Assembly (NCBI GenBank): GCA_002067965.1
Contig: MVRN01000050.1
Coordinates: forward strand, 1 to 64,000
Reading direction: 5' to 3'
Source: Pelotomaculum sp. PtaU1.Bin035
Lineage (GTDB): Bacteria > Bacillota > Desulfotomaculia > Desulfotomaculales > Pelotomaculaceae
DNA: 64,000 nucleotides
Below the pieces are notes generated by a model. It was not told the origin of the DNA and searched no databases. It saw only the letters and a program-made list of their open reading frames with translations. The position numbers and the translations under genes were made by a program. This document shows, one piece after another, positions 2,828-52,930 of the stretch (its first letter is position 1; each line of letters opens with the position of its first letter).

Positions 2828-3607
2828 ATGATTGAAGGGATAACCATCCTCCCGGGCTTGGACAAAGCAGGAAGCAAAGAAAGATTTGAAAAACTTACTT
2901 TAATAGCCGGGGAAACTGTCTCTATCGTCGGACCAACCGGAAGCGGTAAAACTGCATTAATTTCAGACATTGAATTGCTGGCCCAGGGCGATACCTCAAC
3001 CAAACGCCGTATCTTGATCAATGGAGAAGTTCCTGCCGAAGAAGTAAGATATAATCCCGCGCTGAAACCAATTGCCATGATTACTCAAAATACAAAATGT
3101 TTTACCGATTTGAGCACTGAAGAGTTTTTGCATATTCATGCCAAGGCCCGTAAGATTGTGGATAAAAAAATAATTTTGGACACTATCGAATTAGCAAACA
3201 AATTCACCGGGGAAAAGATTAATAAGGAAACCAGGGTCACCGTCCTCTCCGGAGGACAAACCAGGTCCCTATTGATTGCCGACGCGATTTTAATTGGTGC
3301 CGCCCCGGTTATATTGCTGGATGAAATTGAAAACGCCGGTATTTTTAAACAGGAAGTTATCGATATAATCCAAAGCACTTCCAAAATCATCATATTTGTC
3401 ACCCATGACCCGGTAATTGCCCTCCTAACCAAAAAGCGAATAATCATGGAAAACGGCGCAGTTAAAAAAGTCCTCTGTCAGAACGAATTTGAAACCAAAG
3501 CCGCTGAGAACCTTTTAGAACTGGATAAACGGGTAGGATTTATCAGAGAAGAATTAAGAGCGGGAAATGAAATTACCAAAGAACTAATTAGTGTGAGTTT
3601 TGCCTAA
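2828..3607 (+). CDS. ABC-type ATPase of a three-gene metallo-cassette
   Basis: Soluble ATP-binding cassette protein, 259 aa. The Walker A (GPTGSGKT, residue ~36), signature (LSGGQ, ~141), Walker B (VILLDE, ~161) and H-loop (VTHD) are all intact. No membrane segment is present and no permease gene lies nearby, so it is unlikely to be a classical transporter ATPase. It starts at ATG behind TAGGAG and is followed after 30 nt by a G3E-type GTPase and an overlapping Fe-S protein on the same strand. The trio suggests an energy-driven assembly, activation or repair role for a metal or corrinoid protein. That role is inferred from context; the ATPase assignment itself is secure. Confidence 0.8.
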   Translation: MIEGITILPGLDKAGSKERFEKLTLIAGETVSIVGPTGSGKTALISDIELLAQGDTSTKRRILINGEVPAEEVRYNPALKPIAMITQNTKCFTDLSTEEFLHIHAKARKIVDKKIILDTIELANKFTGEKINKETRVTVLSGGQTRSLLIADAILIGAAPVILLDEIENAGIFKQEVIDIIQSTSKIIIFVTHDPVIALLTKKRIIMENGAVKKVLCQNEFETKAAENLLELDKRVGFIREELRAGNEITKELISVSFA

Positions 3608-3637
3608 AATGCTGAAAATAAAAAGGGCGGTGATTTT

Positions 3638-4348
3638 TTGAAACTTTTGGTCATAGCCGGCCCTCCATCCGCCGGAAAAACATCTCTTACCAAGCAGATC
3701 ATAAAAAGATTTAAGGATGAACTGCGGGTGGCTTTTTTAAAGATCGATGTGGTCAAAGCTTATGAAGACATTGAGTTGAGCAGGGAATTTCAGATCATGA
3801 CCAGGAAGATTTATTCCGGTGATTTGTGCCCTGACCACGCCGGAGTAATGGTCCTGGGAGATGCTGTTGAGTGGGCGGAAAGCAAGGCTGCCGACCTGTT
3901 CATCGTTGAAAGCGCCGGGTTATGCTTGCGCTGTTCACCTTATTTGAACCAGGGCTTGGGGGTTGTTGTTCTGAGTTCTATGGCCGGAATCCATACTCCC
4001 GAGAAAATGGGTGCTATGGTAAGCCTGGCCGACATTGCCGTAGTCACCAAAATAGACCTGATAAGCCAAGCTGAGCGGGAAGTCCTGATACAAAAAATAA
4101 AAGACGTCCACCCGAATGTGATCCTTATGGAAACGAACGCTTTACAGGGTACTTCCTTACACCGCTTATACGAACTAATTAGTCATTCGGAAGATATTGA
4201 TAAGGATAACCTCTACCTAAAAGGAAACCCCCCTATTGGAACCTGTACAATATGTGTTGGTAAGAAAGAAATAGGCTGGAAACACCATTTCGGTGTGGTT
4301 AAAAAGCTGGATGGACAAATCGCCGAATATTTGTACCGGGGTGAGTGA
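3638..4348 (+). CDS. G3E-family (HypB/UreG-like) GTPase
   Basis: 236-aa P-loop GTPase with an N-terminal GPPSAGKTS Walker A, a switch-like acidic segment (FLKIDVVKAYED), VVTKIDL as the NKxD-equivalent base-recognition motif, and Cys pairs (LCLRC near residue 97; CTICVG near 206) that could bind metal. G3E GTPases such as HypB, UreG, CobW and MeaB deliver metals or gate cofactor loading. Start TTG at 3638 follows GGGCGGTG. It is sandwiched between the ABC-type ATPase and the Fe-S protein and overlaps the latter by 4 nt, so the three are probably co-translated. Client protein unknown. Confidence 0.8.
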   Translation: MKLLVIAGPPSAGKTSLTKQIIKRFKDELRVAFLKIDVVKAYEDIELSREFQIMTRKIYSGDLCPDHAGVMVLGDAVEWAESKAADLFIVESAGLCLRCSPYLNQGLGVVVLSSMAGIHTPEKMGAMVSLADIAVVTKIDLISQAEREVLIQKIKDVHPNVILMETNALQGTSLHRLYELISHSEDIDKDNLYLKGNPPIGTCTICVGKKEIGWKHHFGVVKKLDGQIAEYLYRGE

Positions 4349-12960: not shown

Positions 12961-12976
12961 TATAGATAAAGTTAAA

Positions 12977-13334
12977 GCGAGAAAATCGTAAGCCGAGTTC
13001 TGTCGTGGGTGATCATCTATCTGGGACGGCTGTTGCCAGCACGCCTCAAGCGACCTAACCCGGGAACTAACGACGGGCCGCCGCAAACATTCCCCTATTC
13101 GGTCTTGCTCCAGGTGGGGTTTACCTAGCCGGCCGGTCGCCCGGCCGCTGGTGCGCTCTTACCGCACCGTTCCATCCTTGCCGCACACTAGAAGTGTGGG
13201 CGGTCTGCATTTCTGTGGCACTATCCTTAGGGTCGCCCCCACTGGGTGTTACCCAGCACCCTGCCCTATGGAGCTCGGACTTTCCTCAGGCGTCACCTTT
13301 CGGCCCGACGCCCGCGATCACCTGATTTACTCAC
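12977..13334 (-). ncRNA. rnpB: RNase P RNA, bacterial class A
   Basis: The minus strand carries the conserved 5' core GAGGAAAGTCCGAGCTCC, the GGATAGTGCCACAGAAA region, a long GC-rich P12-like arm and the 3' core ACAGAACTCGGCTTACGA. Helix P1 is formed by GTGAGTAAATC (13334-13324) and GATTTTCTCGC (12987-12977), which sets the ends at about 358 nt. It is the catalytic subunit that matures tRNA 5' ends. Apparent open frames inside it are not genes. Confidence 0.95.
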
Positions 13335-39429: not shown

Positions 39430-40105
39430 CATGACCACCCCAAAATGGGGTGGCTTGCACGAGCCCTATAAGGGCTTATTACAAGCCAGCGCCTAAAGGA
39501 CGCTGGCTTAAACTTCGTTCAAGCCATGTGCACTGATTACTTGGCAGGACCCTTAAAAGGGTTCTCCAGTTCTTTAGTTGAAATTCTATCCATTATCTGG
39601 TCATGTTTATCTTGCTCGCGTATATACTTTGCTATCGTTTTTTCATTCAACCCTACCGTACTGACATAATATCCTTCGGCCCAGAAATGTCGGTTGCCAA
39701 ATTTATATTTCAGATTTGAGTGCCTGTCGAAGATCATCATTGCACTCTTTCCCTTCAGGTATCCCATTATCTGCGAAACACTATATTTCGGCGGAATACT
39801 CAACAACAGATGGACGTGATCCGACATCATATGCCCCTCTATTATTTCGATACCTTTCCACTTACATAAATCTTTTATAATCCCCTTTATATCTGCCCGC
39901 AACTCGTTATATATTATTTTCCTTCTGTACTTCGGGGTAAACACTATGTGATACTTGCACAGCCATTTGGTATGTGCTAAACTCTCTGCCATAAGCAACA
40001 CCTTTCTCCTGTTTTTTTGATGGCTTGAACAATCATCATTTTAACAGAAGGGTGTTGCTTTGCTTAAGCCTTGAATCCCACCCGCATAGCGGGCGGTTTT
40101 TTGTT
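39430..40105 (-). mobile_element. IS200-type insertion sequence (IS200/IS605 family)
   Basis: Bounded by hairpins: CCACCCC/GGGGTGG (39435-39453) near the 3' end and CCCGC/GCGGG (40081-40093) near the 5' end, with a further AGCCAGCG/CGCTGGCT terminator-like palindrome at 39484-39508. It carries only a Y1 transposase gene. Terminal inverted repeats are absent, as expected for this family. The exact ends are approximate. It separates the pstC2 operon from a truncated nitrogenase-like gene. Confidence 0.75.
39537..39992 (-). CDS. tnpA: IS200-type HUH transposase TnpA
   Basis: 151 aa, single-domain Y1 transposase. The HUH motif is in MMSDHVHLLLSIPP, and the catalytic Tyr in the C-terminal GYYVSTVG segment. 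KYHIVFTPKYRRKII is the family N-terminus. It transposes single-stranded DNA by cutting at subterminal hairpins. Full length, apparently intact. I choose ATG 39992 behind AAAGGTG. No tnpB accompanies it. Confidence 0.93.
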   Translation of the reverse strand: MAESLAHTKWLCKYHIVFTPKYRRKIIYNELRADIKGIIKDLCKWKGIEIIEGHMMSDHVHLLLSIPPKYSVSQIMGYLKGKSAMMIFDRHSNLKYKFGNRHFWAEGYYVSTVGLNEKTIAKYIREQDKHDQIMDRISTKELENPFKGPAK

Positions 40106-40275
40106 CTCCTGGCTAAAAACATGCCAGGAGAACTTACTAAAGTAGAATAAATGCTGCCGCCGCAGCCCATGGAGGCATGAAGAATGGGAACGGTATCCGG
40201 CAGCGCCAGAGCTGTGTGCAGGGCGCCGCCCAGAGCGCAGAAAGAACGGGGTCTCTCAATAAACCTGTCGCTCAT
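40036..40275 (-). pseudogene. truncated nifN/nifK-like nitrogenase component 1 gene
   Basis: The first 45 residues (ERPRSFCALGGALHTALALP, then VPILHASMGCGGSIY) match the N-terminus of nitrogenase component 1 beta-type subunits (NifK/NifN), with the two early cluster Cys. Homology stops near 40140; the remaining 34 codons come from a 31-nt hairpin and the IS200 end. No continuation exists on the other side of the IS, so an insertion plus deletion removed about 90% of the gene. It overlaps the upstream alpha-type gene by 4 nt, so they were one operon. Confidence 0.75.
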
Positions 40276-41789
40276 CTGTCCATCCCTCCTGCCTGGATAT
40301 ATTTGAAGGGGTCTTCCCCGTACCAGGACTGATAATAGGGCTGTCTTACGTTATTTCTCAGATGACGGTTAAATGATATATTCTTCAGTACCCGGTTGAT
40401 TCTTCTGGCAATGTCAAAGGCCCCGACGTAGCCGACGTAGGTATTGGCCCCCCCGTATATAGGCAGAATAGGGATTCCCAGCTTGGCGGCCCATATATTG
40501 TCCGACGAGTGGCCAAGATACAAATCCGGTCTGTGTCTTTCAATCAAATTGACGGTTTCATAAGGATGCACTGTCGCCACATTGACCTTCAAATCTGGAC
40601 TGACGGCAGCCAGTTTGTCTAGCTCCACCTCTCCAAACTCGTCGTAGTGATACGGCCTCACTGCAACAATTTCCATGCCCAGTTCCTGAAGCCAGACTGC
40701 GGTTGCAAATGTTCTGATTTCCCCGGCGCTGAGCATTGCTTTCTTTCCTCGCAAATTTTTACGAATAGGAGCAAGAGCCTCTTCCAGTCCAGCATTCTCG
40801 GCGGCAATCACTTTTTCGGCATTGTCTTCAAGAGCAAAGAACTTGGCAATATCCCTGAGCCACTGGTTTGTATTGTTAATGCCGATGGGCATATGCTTTA
40901 ATATATAAGGGATATGATATTTTTCCTGCAAATGGCTTAAGATATAGTCGTCATGTGTCGGACATGTACTGATGGACAATGCCGCCTCGGTTGCTTTCCA
41001 CATATCCTCCGGATGGGCGAAGCAGGGATAAATATTTACCTCCAGCCCAATTGCCTTGAGTATTCTCACCAATTCATTTTCGTCAAAGGGGGTCATGGAT
41101 GATACATTGAAAAGGTTAACCAGACGGCTTTTTCTGATTTTCTCCGCAGCCTCTTCCAGTTCATCAACAATAACGCGTTTTTCCTCCGGTGGAACATCCA
41201 GCAGATTTCTGCCAATAGCGTGATAAATTGCGTCATAAGCTGTTGCCATGATTTTTGTATTGAATCCCTCGCAATGCACCGGAAGAATGACCGCGTTGAC
41301 CCGCGGCTGAATTCTTGCCGCAACCGCGTCAATATCATCACCGATGATGCCCGGAACACAAGTGGATACGACTATGATGGATGCCGGACGGTATCTCCTG
41401 TCCGCCTCCAGAACAGCCTCTTCCAGTTTACCTTCTCCTCCGCTGACTACATCCATCTTATTCAGATTTGTCGTCAGCCACAAAGTTCCTTTGGGATTGT
41501 CACTTCCAGCCAATGACTGTCTCCAGCGGATACTGGCATTCTGGTTATGACCCGCGCCGCCGCATCCTAAAGAACCATGCACAATCACAACAGACTCCGG
41601 GATGGAGTTGAGGATAGCAGTTCCCGGCAGCAACTGGCATATGGAACCCTGGCAAAACCCGCGGCTGTTGTTTCTCAGGCATCCGCCAACAAATTGCTTT
41701 TTAAGTTCACCTGCCGTTCCGCCGAACTCTATGCAGGAACCAAGCCGTTCCTCGCGTTTGGGAGCAACTTTCTCATTAATATAATGCAT
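40272..41789 (-). CDS. nitrogenase component 1 alpha-like protein (NifD/NifE-like)
   Basis: 505 aa. Cys51, Cys76 and Cys144 have spacings (25 and 68) close to the P-cluster ligands of NifD, within CQGSIC, HGSLGCGGAGHN and STCVPGIIGDD. Cys276 (ISTCPTHDDYI) falls at the position of the FeMo-cofactor Cys ligand. The region of the cofactor His of NifD reads PIYGGANTYVGYVG, with no His, so this is not a Mo-nitrogenase catalytic subunit; NifE or a nitrogenase-like reductase fits better. ATG behind GGAGG. Operon: GS-like, this gene, truncated beta gene. No nifH in the window. Confidence 0.8.
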   Translation of the reverse strand: MHYINEKVAPKREERLGSCIEFGGTAGELKKQFVGGCLRNNSRGFCQGSICQLLPGTAILNSIPESVVIVHGSLGCGGAGHNQNASIRWRQSLAGSDNPKGTLWLTTNLNKMDVVSGGEGKLEEAVLEADRRYRPASIIVVSTCVPGIIGDDIDAVAARIQPRVNAVILPVHCEGFNTKIMATAYDAIYHAIGRNLLDVPPEEKRVIVDELEEAAEKIRKSRLVNLFNVSSMTPFDENELVRILKAIGLEVNIYPCFAHPEDMWKATEAALSISTCPTHDDYILSHLQEKYHIPYILKHMPIGINNTNQWLRDIAKFFALEDNAEKVIAAENAGLEEALAPIRKNLRGKKAMLSAGEIRTFATAVWLQELGMEIVAVRPYHYDEFGEVELDKLAAVSPDLKVNVATVHPYETVNLIERHRPDLYLGHSSDNIWAAKLGIPILPIYGGANTYVGYVGAFDIARRINRVLKNISFNRHLRNNVRQPYYQSWYGEDPFKYIQAGGMDR

Positions 41790-43278: not shown

Positions 43279-44307
43279 CTATAAAACCAATTGGTGACCT
43301 GCTTTCACAAAAGCTACAATATTTTCTAGCGGAACACTTGATGCCAAATCGCACCCAGGCAGTAATACAAAACCATTTCTGCCATCAGCCTGTTTTTGAC
43401 AATCCAGACTCGCTTTTGCAACTTCCTCTGTTGTTCCAAACTGTAAAATATCTACTGGATTTACGTTTCCTGCAATACAGACTTTGTCGCCTACAATATC
43501 CAATGCTTTTTTCAAATCCACCTTGGAATCCACCGAGATACAATCAACCCCAGTATCGGGTATAAGTGCGAGTCTATCTGTTATGTCTCCACAGATATGC
43601 AGCATAACTGGTTTTCCCATGTCCTTAACTACCTTCACAACCTTTCGCAAATAGGGTATTACAAATTCTTTAAAATGCTTTACAGATATAACATCGCCTG
43701 ATGCGGTCGGGTCGGCAATAAACACGCCGTTAACAAGACCTTTACCCAACATCTCTTTGAAATAACATATGGAAACATGTGTCGTAAACTCCAAAAGCTC
43801 CTTGATAAAAACCTTATTCTTATAGATAGCTCTGCAGGTTTTTTCCAGACCGTACATTTGTGTTGCCAGTGTAAAAGGAGCACGCCCACTGGCCAAAACC
43901 ATTCTTTGATTTTGGGTCATGGATATTACTTCCTTTGCTGTTTGAACAAGCCACATGACAGCCTGATCATTCCAAAACTCCATTTTCCACAACTTTGGCA
44001 AAGACGATTCATGTTCTATCAATTCCCGAGTAATCTCCGGCGCACCTACCGGATTGAAACGTATTTCCCCACCCAGAGCTCTTATCGTAAGTGCTGTTGC
44101 CCCGGTTCCAACCATAATTAAGTCTGCGTTCAACAGCTCATTTACCTCAAAAAAAATCTTTGCCGTTTCCCGTGCCTTGCCAATCAGTGCATCCAGTGTC
44201 AGTCCGGAATGAATCACCGGCCAGCTTCCCCCAAGGAAAACACCCACTGGCGTCAGATCGTGAGGTTTTCTTTCAAATGCCTTTTTCACTCTTTCTTTCG
44301 GAGTCAA
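43279..44307 (-). CDS. MtaA/MtbA-type uroporphyrinogen decarboxylase-family methyltransferase
   Basis: 342 aa TIM barrel. The Zn-binding set HxC...C is seen in MLHICGD and PGCDLASS, which distinguishes corrinoid:thiol methyltransferases (MtaA, MtbA, CmuA) from true HemE. Other motifs: GVFLGGSWPVIHSG, ADPTASGDVIS, ISVDSKVDLKKA and GNVNPVDIL. It would move a methyl group between a corrinoid protein and a thiol. No corrinoid protein gene is in the window. TTG 44307 follows AGGTG by 6 nt; GTG 44316 lacks a ribosome-binding site. A leader with a terminator hairpin precedes it. Confidence 0.8.
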   Translation of the reverse strand: MTPKERVKKAFERKPHDLTPVGVFLGGSWPVIHSGLTLDALIGKARETAKIFFEVNELLNADLIMVGTGATALTIRALGGEIRFNPVGAPEITRELIEHESSLPKLWKMEFWNDQAVMWLVQTAKEVISMTQNQRMVLASGRAPFTLATQMYGLEKTCRAIYKNKVFIKELLEFTTHVSICYFKEMLGKGLVNGVFIADPTASGDVISVKHFKEFVIPYLRKVVKVVKDMGKPVMLHICGDITDRLALIPDTGVDCISVDSKVDLKKALDIVGDKVCIAGNVNPVDILQFGTTEEVAKASLDCQKQADGRNGFVLLPGCDLASSVPLENIVAFVKAGHQLVL

Positions 44308-44326
44308 GCTATTCACCTACTTAAGC

Positions 44327-44365
44327 AAAAAGGCCGTTATCCAAATCCTGGTTTGGAACACGGCC
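44327..44365 (-). terminator. attenuator hairpin before the methyltransferase gene
   Basis: On the minus strand GGCCGTGTTCCAAA pairs with TTTGGATAACGGCC (44365-44332), followed by TTTTT (44331-44327). Only about 20 nt separate the T-run from the start codon, which leaves no room for a promoter. Transcription must therefore pass through it, marking it as an attenuator and not an ordinary end of transcript. Confidence 0.75.
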
Positions 44366-44660
44366 TCTGGTTTTCCAGTTGGCTATGTTATTGCCGAGTG
44401 CTGACTCGGGCGACGCTGCTGTCATTGACAGTTTACTATCCTGATCAGATGCGTTGCCGGCTGGTTGCCGCATGCCCCAACATGCCCAAAGTGAGAATAC
44501 CCCAAATCTCTCTTGACATATTAGGTAGCTTTTACACTCACGTTTGCTGCGGGGATGTGCCGCGGTAACGGACAGGGGGGTGCCGCTACCAGCGATACCA
44601 AGTAAGCCTATATTCCCAATCAAACCGAGACTGGCAAATACCGTAAGAAATTGTGATTAC
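44366..44660 (-). promoter_or_regulatory. structured leader RNA, possible riboswitch
   Basis: Upstream of the attenuator the minus strand holds a run of hairpins: CTGGAAAACCAG, CCGAGTCAGCACTCGG, CTGTCAATGACAG, GCATGTTGGGGCATGC, plus a conserved-looking core with GCGGCAACC and CCGGCAACGC. An open frame exists across it but has no ribosome-binding site and unlikely composition. I tried the SAM-I and cobalamin riboswitch consensus; neither fits fully. Ligand unknown. Confidence 0.45.
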
Positions 44661-44744
44661 AAAAAATGGAATATAATTTCGTACCTCCCCTACGAAAGGC
44701 AGGAAAAATTTAATAACGATGGTTTAAGCAAAGCCTTGTGCCAT

Positions 44745-45116
44745 CTAGCTCGGTGAATGCCGAAAAGGAGTCAATTTCTTCAAAGCACCTTCATATGGAA
44801 TCAGTCGCTTTAGAGCATCTTCTATAAAATCGGGGATTACATGTGGCTGGATTCCCCGGGACAGCAGAGCGTCTATCGCCCCCGGACCGATCTGGCTCAC
44901 CAGCACTACCCGGCAATCGGAAATCAGGTCAACTGTTCTGGCCAGCAAGTCGCTATTGTGCGCACCACCATCGCACGGTGGGGTATTATCCCGCAGAACG
45001 AGAAAGAAAAACCCACCGTCATCTTTAATTTCAAAGATCAGAAATTGGCTGGCCCGTCCGAAATGCTGGTTTACAAACTTGCCGTCGCTACTGGCAACAG
45101 CCACTTTATACGACAC
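44745..45116 (-). CDS. NifX/NifB-C-like iron-molybdenum cofactor-binding protein
   Basis: 123 aa, dinitrogenase Fe-Mo-cofactor family (NifX/NifY/VnfX/NifB C-terminal domain). Motifs: VAVASSDGKFVNQHFGRA with the conserved His, PPCDGG, DLISDCRVVLVSQIGPGA and ALLSRGIQPHVIPD. Such proteins hold NifB-co or related Fe-S clusters. GTG start behind GGGGGAGG, 20 nt after nifB. It supplies in trans the domain that NifB lacks here. Confidence 0.85.
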   Translation of the reverse strand: MSYKVAVASSDGKFVNQHFGRASQFLIFEIKDDGGFFFLVLRDNTPPCDGGAHNSDLLARTVDLISDCRVVLVSQIGPGAIDALLSRGIQPHVIPDFIEDALKRLIPYEGALKKLTPFRHSPS

Positions 45117-45136: not shown

Positions 45137-46027
45137 TCAGCCATGGGAAAATGTTGACAGCGGTTCCTCGTACAGTTCATCAGCCAAATCCACCCCGGTT
45201 CCAGGAACGCCGCAGGCATCCGCCCGGCACTGCCTGCAGTGCCTGAATACGGGCAAATGTTTTTCGGCAGCAGCCCGGGCAGCATTCAATTCATCACAAT
45301 CAGGCGGAGGGTATTTCTCCATGTCATGTTGGGGAATCAGCGGAATGATATTTATCAGTGAAGCCCCTGCCCCCGCCGTTGCCCTGGCCACTTCTTCCAC
45401 ATGATGGTCATTGACGCCGGGAATGAGCACAGTATTTATTTTTACCACCGCCCCGAGTTCGACAACTTTCTCTATGCCCGCAAGCTGAGCCATTACCAGC
45501 CAGCGGGCGGCATGTTCACCTGTAATATACTGTCCATTGTAATTGATGTAAGCGCAGATGTTTTTCAACACCGCCGGATATACGGCATTAACGGTTACCG
45601 TTACTGTCCTTACCCCGGCAGCAACAATCCGACCCGCTTTTTCTTTTAGTAACAATCCGTTTGTGCTGAGGCAGTTGATCAGATGGGGAAACCTCTTATG
45701 AATCAATTCGAAAGTTTCCAGCGCGTGATCGGTAGCCAAGGTGTCGCCGGGGCCCGCGACACCGACTACTGTTATCTGAGGACATAACTCAAGAGCCCGC
45801 TTGACAACACCTACAGAATCTTTAGGCTTGAGGAGAAAGCTACTTACTCCTGGCCGTTTTTCCCATTTATTGAAACCCCGTTTGCAAAACCGGCATTGGA
45901 TGTTGCAAGCCGGACTCACTGGCAGGTGGATGCGTCCGAAGTTATTATGCGCCTCGCCGTTAAAACATGGGTGCTTTTTAACCAGATGGCTGAATTTCTC
46001 ACCAAGTTTGGATTGTAGGCAATTCAT
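45137..46027 (-). CDS. nifB: radical SAM protein NifB
   Basis: 296 aa. HPCFNGEAHNNFGRIHLPVS followed by CNIQCRFC is the NifB N-terminal signature with the radical-SAM CxxxCxxC. VGVAGPGDTLA, LSTNGLLL and the C-terminal CRQCRADACGVPG (cluster ligands) also fit. NifB makes the Fe8S9C NifB-cofactor used by all nitrogenases. ATG 46027 follows GGGAAG; reading from 46147 would add 40 unrelated residues. It lacks a C-terminal NifX domain, which is encoded by the next gene. Confidence 0.9.
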   Translation of the reverse strand: MNCLQSKLGEKFSHLVKKHPCFNGEAHNNFGRIHLPVSPACNIQCRFCKRGFNKWEKRPGVSSFLLKPKDSVGVVKRALELCPQITVVGVAGPGDTLATDHALETFELIHKRFPHLINCLSTNGLLLKEKAGRIVAAGVRTVTVTVNAVYPAVLKNICAYINYNGQYITGEHAARWLVMAQLAGIEKVVELGAVVKINTVLIPGVNDHHVEEVARATAGAGASLINIIPLIPQHDMEKYPPPDCDELNAARAAAEKHLPVFRHCRQCRADACGVPGTGVDLADELYEEPLSTFSHG

Positions 46028-46123
46028 ATTTTCACTTCCCAAGGACTGATTTGTTATAGAAAAAACATTACATGTACAATAAGTTGTTTTTATCTTTTGG
46101 GGAACCGTTCCGTACAGATCAAA

Positions 46124-46157
46124 AGGCCAGGTAAGTACAAGTACCATAACCTGGCCT
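46124..46157 (-). terminator. hairpin upstream of nifB
   Basis: AGGCCAGGT (46124-46132) pairs with ACCTGGCCT (46149-46157), enclosing a GTAC palindrome, and TTTTG follows on the minus strand. It probably ends the yezD transcript. A TTGTAC/TATAAC promoter candidate lies between it and nifB. The stem resembles the phoU terminator stem at 35903. Confidence 0.65.
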
Positions 46158-46212
46158 CCAGTTTGTCCAGTTAGCCTACTTATATTATTAGTTAATTAAT
46201 ATAATAATTTAT

Positions 46213-46395
46213 TTAACAAAAACGTATTTTTTCGTTTCTTTCCATTTGCACCAATCTCTCATCCTGTACAATCAAGGTTACACTTCCATACCGCAGATTT
46301 CTTAATAACAAGAGCAGTTCTTTTAGCCAAGGTAATTGATCCGGGGATTCTAGATTTTTAATTTCACCTTCCACTATTAATTTTATTGCCTCCAT
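46213..46395 (-). CDS. YezD family (DUF2292) small protein
   Basis: 60 aa. The C-terminal half LRYGSVTLIVQDERLVQMER, then NEKIRF, is the DUF2292/YezD signature. Such genes usually accompany sulfur-assimilation genes in Firmicutes. It sits downstream of cysK, pdxS and metY. Molecular role unknown. Confidence 0.8.
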   Translation of the reverse strand: MEAIKLIVEGEIKNLESPDQLPWLKELLLLLRNLRYGSVTLIVQDERLVQMERNEKIRFC

Positions 46396-51439: not shown

Positions 51440-52930
51440 TGTAAGCGTTGGCCTGCTCTCTGATCCTGAAGCAACCCTATCATGGCTCTCTGGGTATCTC
51501 GTGCAATCACAAGTCCCTACATTCCCTAGTCCTGCCTCTCAGGGCCAGCAGACGTAATATACTCGTATGCGGGGTCAGAATACCTCTGCCCTGGCGGGGG
51601 TGATCGTTATCGCTGTACAGATGGCCTTGTCTTTTTAAGATTTAAGCGGCAGCTATAGCTTTGTAGGCGGCTCGTTCAGGTTGATACCGGGTCTTTTTTT
51701 TTGACAGCACAAACATGATTCGCAATACTTTAACACTGATTGCTACAAGCGCTTGTTTCTTTTGAAGGGGCCGGTTCGAACGCCCGGTAAGTTGGTCATA
51801 GATGTATCTTAATTCTTTGTTATGAACGACAGCCATTAGCGCCAGTTGATATGCCAAGCTCCTTAGCGAGGCCCGGCCTCTCTTTGTGATTGTTCTTTTA
51901 CCTCGGTGCTTTCCGGAATCGTTTTCCCGGATATTCAGGCCGGCTAATTTTTGAATCTCACGCCAGTTATTGTAGTTTGTAGGGTCGCCGATTTCGGCCA
52001 GAAATAATGCTCCTGTGATTTCTCCCACACCGGGAATGCTTTGGATATACTCCGCTAGGCCGGTTTCACGGAAGGCTTCTTTAAGCCTTGTTTCTATTAG
52101 TTCTTGTTCTTTAAGATACTGTTCATATTCAGATATCAGGATGGCCATCCGCTGGGCGGCAGCATCACTGCCTTGACGGACACCGATGGACTCAGCGGCC
52201 AGTGTCATTAATTTTCGGGCTCGCTTTAATCCCTGGTGTCTGTTAGAAACTTGTTTTAAGCCGTTGGTCAGCGCTTCTTCCGACATGGACAGGATTTGCC
52301 GCGGAAAGGGTGCTGTAGCTAATAACCACCTGGTCGATTTAGCTGACATTGTTCTAAACAGTGTGGGCAACTCGGGAAAAAACTGGTCAATACTCGCCTT
52401 AATCTGGCATTTGACAGCTTTTATTTTTTCGATAACCATACTCCTGGTTTTGCCGTATTCTTCAAGATCGGCGTAAACGCCGGTCTTTCGGAGCGGCATT
52501 AGAAAATTGTTATCTCGAATCAGTTTACTAATGGTATAGGCGTCTTTACGGTCGTTTTTACTGGGACTGTTGTCGGCAAACTCTTTGCTTTTTTTGACAT
52601 GCATGGGATTTACCAGAACAAAATTGTATCCCCGGTCGACCAGATATTCGGCCAATGCCTTCCCATAGTGGCCGGTGGGTTCCATTCCAAATATCACGGC
52701 CTTAAGGCCCTGTTCTTTTAAGCACGCAGTGGCTCTAAGGACTAGATTTTCGAAGCCTTCTCTGGTATTCTGAAAAGAGTATGGTTTGCCCAATTTTTTG
52801 CCAAAGGGGTCTATGAACTGAGCCCAATGTAATGATTTGGCAATATCGATTCCCACCACAAGGTGTTCGGGGCCGACCACAAGTCTTTTCATATTGTTTT
52901 TTACCTCCTGGTATTTGGATTAGGTTGGCA
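51440..52930 (-). mobile_element. IS110-family insertion sequence
   Basis: A full-length IS110-type transposase is followed downstream by about 200 bases of GC-rich, structure-prone non-coding DNA (51440-51641) that differs from its A/T-rich flank and could encode a bridge RNA. IS110 elements lack terminal inverted repeats, so the ends are approximate. It splits the SLH gene from the ABC operon. Confidence 0.55.
51642..52892 (-). CDS. IS110-family DEDD transposase
   Basis: 416 aa. The N-terminal RuvC-like domain has VVGIDIAKSLHWAQF (first Asp), FGMEPTGHYG (Glu) and SKNDRKDAYTI (DxxD). The C-terminal Tnp20 domain has IPGVGEITGALFLAEIGD and KLAGLNIRENDSGKHRGKR, with the Ser nucleophile region GRASLRSLAYQLAL. 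It appears intact. ATG behind GGAGG. Confidence 0.95.
   Translation of the reverse strand: MKRLVVGPEHLVVGIDIAKSLHWAQFIDPFGKKLGKPYSFQNTREGFENLVLRATACLKEQGLKAVIFGMEPTGHYGKALAEYLVDRGYNFVLVNPMHVKKSKEFADNSPSKNDRKDAYTISKLIRDNNFLMPLRKTGVYADLEEYGKTRSMVIEKIKAVKCQIKASIDQFFPELPTLFRTMSAKSTRWLLATAPFPRQILSMSEEALTNGLKQVSNRHQGLKRARKLMTLAAESIGVRQGSDAAAQRMAILISEYEQYLKEQELIETRLKEAFRETGLAEYIQSIPGVGEITGALFLAEIGDPTNYNNWREIQKLAGLNIRENDSGKHRGKRTITKRGRASLRSLAYQLALMAVVHNKELRYIYDQLTGRSNRPLQKKQALVAISVKVLRIMFVLSKKKTRYQPERAAYKAIAAA

Follow-up and report, generated by a model that had tools for sequence, protein, structure and literature searches.

A DUF2292-associated candidate attenuator module preceding sulfur-related genes in Pelotomaculum and other Firmicutes

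Gene content of the locus and transposon remnants upstream of the module

The window, i.e., the whole stretch of 64,000 nucleotides analyzed from Pelotomaculum sp. PtaU1.Bin035 (contig MVRN01000050.1), carries between positions 40272 and 49736 a cluster encoding CysK-like, PdxS-like, MetY-like, DUF2292, NifB-like, NifX-like, URO-D, glutamine synthetase-like and NifD-like proteins, names such as CysK-like representing our own reading of Pfam matches. Judged from its gene content, this cluster resembles the mlp/MarHDK methyl-sulfur clusters, which Kountz and Balskus (PMC10418091) linked to methyl-sulfur metabolism and methionine salvage; the main text of their article makes no mention of a riboswitch, a terminator or YezD. 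The NifD-like gene (40272-41789) was found without a second nitrogenase-like gene, a partner located after it in seven out of seven relatives (L085-L091). The place of the missing partner is occupied by an IS200/IS605 transposase gene (39537-40001) and, because of this replacement, the window cluster may be truncated. An IS110 family transposase gene (51642-52892) and an RNase P class A RNA (12974-13333, minus strand, 303.8 bits) were also detected in the window. The features referred to below are the following:

43279-44316, minus strand: URO-D family methyltransferase gene (PF01208, E 4e-56)
44326-44383, minus strand: attenuator module before the URO-D gene (antiterminator hairpin plus terminator), 58 nt, 52.8 bits with model R1, conserved at the same place in L086 and L116/L291
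44327-44367, minus strand: intrinsic terminator hairpin and T run (-21.3 kcal/mol, z -4.76), with covarying stem
44363-44383, minus strand: antiterminator hairpin GCC-AA-CUGG-AAAA-CCAG-A-GGC, fold (((..((((....)))).))), -7.2 kcal/mol, with covarying pairs
44391-44541, plus strand: IS66 right-end remnant (TnpC C-terminus with stop codon and right inverted repeat ending at 44541), from tblastn and DNA alignments
44542-44673, minus strand: IS1182-like transposase gene remnant, from blastn, tblastn and alignment, its family taken from an intact copy
44745-45116, minus strand: NifX-like gene between both modules (PF02579, E 2e-19)
45137-46147, minus strand: NifB-like radical SAM gene led by the second module, its real start probably near 46027
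46119-46175, minus strand: second module copy, before the NifB-like gene (46.1 bits with R1)
46213-46395, minus strand: DUF2292 gene, immediately preceding the second module (PF10055, 58.2 bits, cutoff 22)

The URO-D gene scored below the cutoffs of MtaA/CmuA-type models. Its longest frame starts at GTG 44316; as deduced from the sequence context, TTG 44307 (MTPKERV..., preceded by AGGTGA) is the more likely start. From the end of the T run to this TTG there are about 20 nt, and to the GTG about 10 nt. The terminator hairpin (44367-44330, minus strand) consists of an 8+6-bp stem with a 2x2 internal loop and a run of five T on its 3' side, and none of 200 shuffled sequences was equally stable (-21.3 kcal/mol, z -4.76). 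This agrees with an earlier note on this DNA, which had placed a terminator with five T about 20 nt before the start codon. No sigma-70 promoter-like site was detected in a simple scan of positions 43900-44900; the terminator escaped the same scan, presumably because of its internal loop. A sigma-54 site, judged by eye, was weak and was dropped.

The earlier note had furthermore described a structured leader of successive hairpins, about 300 nt long, whereas homology identified this region as remnants of transposase genes. A blastn comparison of 401 nt with 60 relatives yielded two pieces that are found apart in other genomes, one being located in IS66 transposase copies and the other inside IS1182-like transposase genes. 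On the plus strand, positions 44391-44513 showed 68-78% protein identity to TnpC C-termini, including an in-frame stop (tblastn). The assignment to IS66 is based on this homology and on a right-end repeat aligning, in diverged form, with relatives. On the minus strand, 44674-44525 showed 62-64% protein identity to an IS1182-like transposase, with one stop and one inserted codon; the intact IS1182-like relative reached 42.1 bits to NF033551 (cutoff 270) and 26.9 bits to Pfam DDE_Tnp_1 (cutoff 23). In the DNA alignment, the IS66 right end at 44541 directly abuts the interrupted transposase at 44542. Judged from these alignments, both transposase genes are broken, and transposon debris would have landed between the NifX-like gene and the module, with the module surviving.

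The upstream region of about 300 nt folds better than shuffled sequences (z -3.05), which would speak for a riboswitch leader of this length serving the methyltransferase gene. However, the opposite strand is nearly as well folded (z -2.75), transposase remnants occupy 44391-44673, and the stretch upstream of the module is not conserved before the other URO-D genes compared, making such a leader extremely improbable. Because the remnants fill the region, its fold z provides no evidence for leader RNA, and for the part upstream of 44384 the riboswitch leader is refuted by the transposase-gene homology.

Structure and covariation of the module

The module pattern was matched twice in the window, compared with 0.00 matches in shuffled sequences. 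Its first hairpin, 21 nt long, has the general form GYY-RA-P1-(A-rich loop)-P1'-A-RGC, and since ARGC is common to both hairpins, the antiterminator and the terminator are mutually exclusive. In alignment A2 (20 sequences), P1 and the terminator were 97.5% paired with a covariation of 0.518, compared with 0.170 after shuffling (0/500), the columns AAAC..GAGGC..GCCTTTT being invariant by construction, as they were fixed in the search. Alignment A5 (69 elements), which was fitted to the model, was 98.5% paired with a covariation of 0.624, compared with 0.189 after shuffling (0/500) and at most 0.193 for slid versions, and the antiterminator form (GYY:RGC plus P1) was 99.6% paired. With RGC shared and both helices paired and covarying to this extent, the module consists of mutually exclusive conserved hairpins, and the attenuator architecture is strongly supported. 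The proposal of the earlier note that a genuine attenuator lies just before the methyltransferase gene was thus borne out by a conserved, covarying module.

Within the 69 elements, the flanks are nearly constant (G1 and A5 in 68, A26, G28 and C29 in 69), and the P1 pairs vary as CCGG/CCGG, CCAG/CUGG, CUGG/CCAG, CUAG/CUAG, AUGG/CCAU, AUUG/CAAU, CCCG/CGGG and GCAG/CUGC. GGG/CCC and CGCG/CGCG were added by the last locus set, with GYYRA and ARGC unchanged across all variants. In the first 30 DUF2292 loci that were positive in a P1-independent scan, the outer three base pairs of P1 were paired in 87 out of 90 cases (shuffle mean 70.3, 0/2000). Taken as isolated hairpins of the URO-D copy, the terminator (-21.3 kcal/mol) greatly exceeds the antiterminator (-7.2 kcal/mol) in stability, and the nifB copy has an antiterminator that is weak in isolation, at -2.4 kcal/mol. 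A shorter GTTGACTAGAGGCTGTG..GCAGCCTTTT variant without the P1 loop was observed in two genomes of one genus (L298, 3817-3863; L282, 4343-4389).

Searches against Rfam 15 at the gathering cutoff, covering the whole window, L086, 18 loci and 12 viral loci, revealed nothing over the element, and at E<=10 nothing was above cutoff on the element in 44200-44800 and 46000-46300. A match to drum RNA (20.8 bits, cutoff 43) was taken as chance. The Infernal/Rfam comparison proposed earlier is therefore in line with the accompanying remark that no known riboswitch fits. No description of the element was found in the open-access literature searched.

Distribution, genes led and association with DUF2292

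A blastn search with an 85-nt query gave no good relative, first among 25 and later among 113 genomes, and the assumption that the element is unique to its own genome was rejected after the URO-D upstream regions had been compared. In Clostridia bacterium SKW182 (L086), the module lies 60 nt before the URO-D orthologue (57% protein identity) and shows compensatory stem changes; the other seven of the eight URO-D loci compared are without the module at that place. In UBA4049 (L116/L291, with L085 on the same contig), the order is NifB-like gene, DUF2292, module and URO-D gene. Comparing leaders of homologous genes, as suggested in the earlier note, thus revealed the module in an equivalent position upstream of the URO-D orthologues of two other genomes. 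Missing conservation among relatives, which that note had regarded as speaking against a leader, applies to the rest of the leader but not to the module. The URO-D gene of UBA4049 (DFZT01000067.1; L085 about 3200-3943, L291 near 6205) seems to be split, its N-terminal part directly following the element and being followed by an integrase-like ORF, and its C-terminal part (residues 95-342) being separated from it by about 15 kb of the same contig.

Among 113 genomes of the class, the pattern search yielded 33 matches in 24 genomes, about half of them featuring GYYRA and P1, though these were absent from the search pattern. Model R1, built on A2, detected strong copies (>=28 bits, with GYYRA and P1) in 14 out of the 113 genomes, including five in the genome of the window and about fifteen in G018. 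At E<=0.01, R1 matched 49 of the 113 genomes, most weak matches being probably due to chance. Model R2, trained partly on DUF2292 loci of the phylum, matched 56 out of 398 phylum genomes at E<=1e-5.

Pfam matches for genes near or after the module comprised, in a first set, AOR, an NMT1-type substrate-binding protein, DUF4430, a prenyltransferase-like protein, B3/4 and phage terminase gpA. The second set contained MetK (two), PALP/CysK-like, NifH, radical SAM, B12-binding, ABC permease, ATP-sulfurylase and sigma-70 region 4 proteins, one out of ten being unmatched. In the third set, ten out of ten were matched, namely PAPS reductase (two), ATP-sulfurylase (two), FAD_binding_2, PALP, NMT1, ABC ATPase, permease and substrate-binding protein. 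As far as can be deduced from these matches, the genes led function mainly in sulfur acquisition, cysteine and methionine synthesis and methyl-sulfur metabolism.

The protein encoded by 46395-46216 reaches the Pfam gathering score for PF10055, its only Pfam match. In the 113 class genomes, 25 DUF2292 genes were found in 20 genomes, i.e., in 12 out of 14 element genomes compared with 8 out of 99 others, the matches in G057 and G005 (28-29 bits), which are without GYYRA or P1, being left out of this count. In an adjacency scan for motif plus terminator within 400 nt, not requiring P1 pairing, the module was located downstream of DUF2292 in 42 out of 110 loci (16/25, 14/28 and 12/57), compared with 8 out of 110 in the upstream control (3/25, 0/28 and 5/57). 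The 28 phylum loci are the best-scoring ones and come from genomes that played no part in defining the motif; R1, trained without them, matches most of them directly downstream of DUF2292. The 57 loci are lower-scoring DUF2292 genes added later, with 11 second domains of the same ORF left out. Two of their 12 downstream matches (L452, L482) are without P1 pairing and probably due to chance, and three of their five upstream matches (L441, L451, L482) look like real elements of neighboring genes. Since these lower-scoring genes gave 12/57 downstream and 5/57 upstream, typical members of the DUF2292 family show the strongest link to the module. Some of the loci are nearly identical to one another (L315-L318 of one genus; viral L350/L353 and L351/L363/L369), so that the locus counts are not all independent.

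At the genome level, 44 genomes contained both DUF2292 and the element, 24 DUF2292 only, 12 the element only and 318 neither (Fisher p 4.6e-30), a count that is not independent because R2 was trained partly on these loci. DUF2292 was therefore present in 44 out of 56 element genomes, and 24 out of 68 DUF2292 genomes were without an element at E<=1e-5. Because of these 24 genomes, and because only 12 of the 57 lower-scoring genes adjoin an element, DUF2292 must have other settings as well. Among the 12 element-only genomes, G033, G189 and G317 feature diverged DUF2292-like ORFs near the element, and G352, G311 and G381 feature convincing elements with no DUF2292 seen on contigs of only ~3 kb; the elements of the remaining ones look weak.

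The fold predicted for DUF2292 is a helix plus a beta hairpin (mean pLDDT 78). A PDB fold search with this prediction gave no significant match and no solved RNA-binding protein (best E 0.9), and a PDB sequence search, PHROGs, and plasmid and phage collections gave no lead. YezD is listed as 'Unknown' in a table of PMC6385201. Double-domain DUF2292 proteins, with two PF10055 domains in one frame, were observed in several families, mostly without an element (L452, L458, L461-L463, L465, L466, L469 and L470).

The element also occurs in phages. Most viral loci from one search were noise and were scanned by pattern only. Among 29 pattern-matched IMG/VR loci, 12 are preceded on the same strand by a DUF2292-like ORF, at a distance of up to 54 nt in eight cases, some of these loci being near-identical. 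The typical order is RusA-like ORF, DUF2292-like ORF, element, small ORF and ParB-like or terminase ORF, according to our own naming of the ORFs, and the copies precede genes of the middle/late region. Prophage-like copies were found in G033, G055 and G077. Judged from the phage copies, the proposed antitermination module may be portable.

Proposed mechanism, rival explanations and known systems

We propose that the module mediates transcription attenuation of sulfur-scavenging genes, with the DUF2292 protein as the likely RNA-binding antiterminator, and assign this reading a probability of roughly 55%. RNA polymerase would first make the 21-nt hairpin. If it is held, RGC would stay paired with GYY, no terminator would form and the downstream gene would be transcribed; if it is released, ARGC would pair with GCYU and transcription would stop at the U run. 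The DUF2292 protein (~55 aa, YezD-like) would act in trans by binding the invariant internal-loop region formed by GYY-RA and A-RGC. Regulated antitermination is suggested by the mutually exclusive hairpins, their orientation towards sulfur genes and the recurrent order DUF2292, module and operon. Since the genes led are mainly sulfur-related, the most likely use of the module is to switch on sulfur-scavenging operons when the cell needs them. The data establish the sequence, the covarying structure, the distribution and the adjacency of the module, and the direction of regulation, the binding by DUF2292 and the sulfur signal are inferred. A corrinoid, SAM or metal ligand, as guessed in the earlier note, found no direct backing; sulfur metabolism as a whole is indicated by the genes led, and DUF2292 as the partner by the adjacency.

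Several results speak against the attenuation reading with DUF2292 as antiterminator, namely the DUF2292 genes and genomes without an element, the three genomes with convincing elements in which no DUF2292 was seen, the fold search without a match to a solved RNA-binding protein, and the low stability of the isolated antiterminators. The adjacency could also reflect shared sulfur regulation. This is part of the main rival, a minimal riboswitch, in which the GYY-RA/A-RGC hairpin would be bound directly by a sulfur metabolite, or else by a tRNA or another small RNA ligand, and DUF2292 would be the co-regulated first gene of the operons. It would account for the mostly sulfur- and methionine-related genes led, for elements without an adjoining DUF2292 gene, including the window URO-D copy, and for the elements in the three genomes in which no DUF2292 was seen. 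We nevertheless regard it as unlikely, since only about nine constant bases outside the freely varying stem would hardly suffice for a metabolite pocket, the module follows DUF2292 and does not precede it, and phage copies adjoin DUF2292-like ORFs instead of sulfur genes.

In four loci (L330, L332, L337 and L376), the DUF2292 frame enters or crosses the RNA element, so that the RNA structure is also coding there. These loci, together with the many stop codons located within 60 nt of the element, would fit translation-coupled attenuation, in which a ribosome finishing the DUF2292 frame beside or inside the element sets the hairpin choice. This is improbable considering that no short frame lies just upstream in the window URO-D copy, L097, L286, L287, L292 and others, and that the distance to DUF2292 varies from overlap to >100 nt. 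An ordinary unregulated terminator, causing partial polarity between DUF2292 and the gene that follows, would explain the strong and conserved stem, but not the covariation of P1 and GYY/RGC pairing, which termination does not need, nor the elements standing alone in leaders of other genes; it is, by a shade, less probable still.

Extending the attenuation reading with DUF2292 as antiterminator, the protein may represent an unrecognised antiterminator family that targets the module, runs a sulfur-starvation regulon of Firmicutes and is exchanged with phages for the step into later genes, the position at which lambda carries Q. This wider proposal falls somewhat short of an even chance. If true, it would assign a function to the widespread DUF2292 family of unknown role, and would reveal a new attenuator class for sulfate assimilation, cysteine and methionine synthesis and nitrogenase-like methyl-sulfur enzymes, the regulation of such sulfur genes in these anaerobes being little known. 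DUF2292 as antiterminator would also constitute a new protein-RNA antitermination family, whose minimal 21-nt target with its freely covarying stem is easily testable at the bench.

The module works like known attenuators. PRD antiterminators (BglG, LicT and SacY) act on RAT hairpins, and the module shares with RAT a small hairpin that overlaps the 5' arm of the terminator and often adjoins the gene of its own regulator. A regulator working in trans on several copies is a further common trait, which for DUF2292 is a proposal. In contrast to RAT, the module probably has another sequence, and it has one asymmetric internal loop and sulfur rather than sugar genes downstream; no CAT RNA-binding domain protein was found next to the element, the adjacent protein matching only PF10055 in Pfam and giving no significant match in the PDB fold search.

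According to PMC3369931, the antiterminator hairpin of ANTAR/EutV systems likewise excludes the terminator hairpin, and the target RNA consists of two tandem hairpins with hexanucleotide loops carrying A at position 1 and G at position 4. The module differs by a single P1 hairpin with A-rich loops of mostly 4-5 nt (69 elements). LoaP, as described in PMC12691694, also needs a small leader RNA hairpin for antitermination; that of the dfn/mln leaders has a UNCG-type loop, compared with the A-rich loop columns of the 69 elements, and LoaP works on the elongation complex as well as on additional downstream terminators.

SAM, Moco and cobalamin riboswitches resemble the module in exerting terminator control before metabolic genes, whereas the element itself matches none of them in Rfam 15. 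In two loci (L117, 1561-1832; L127, 2897-3037), a cobalamin riboswitch directly follows the module, which suggests tandem control.
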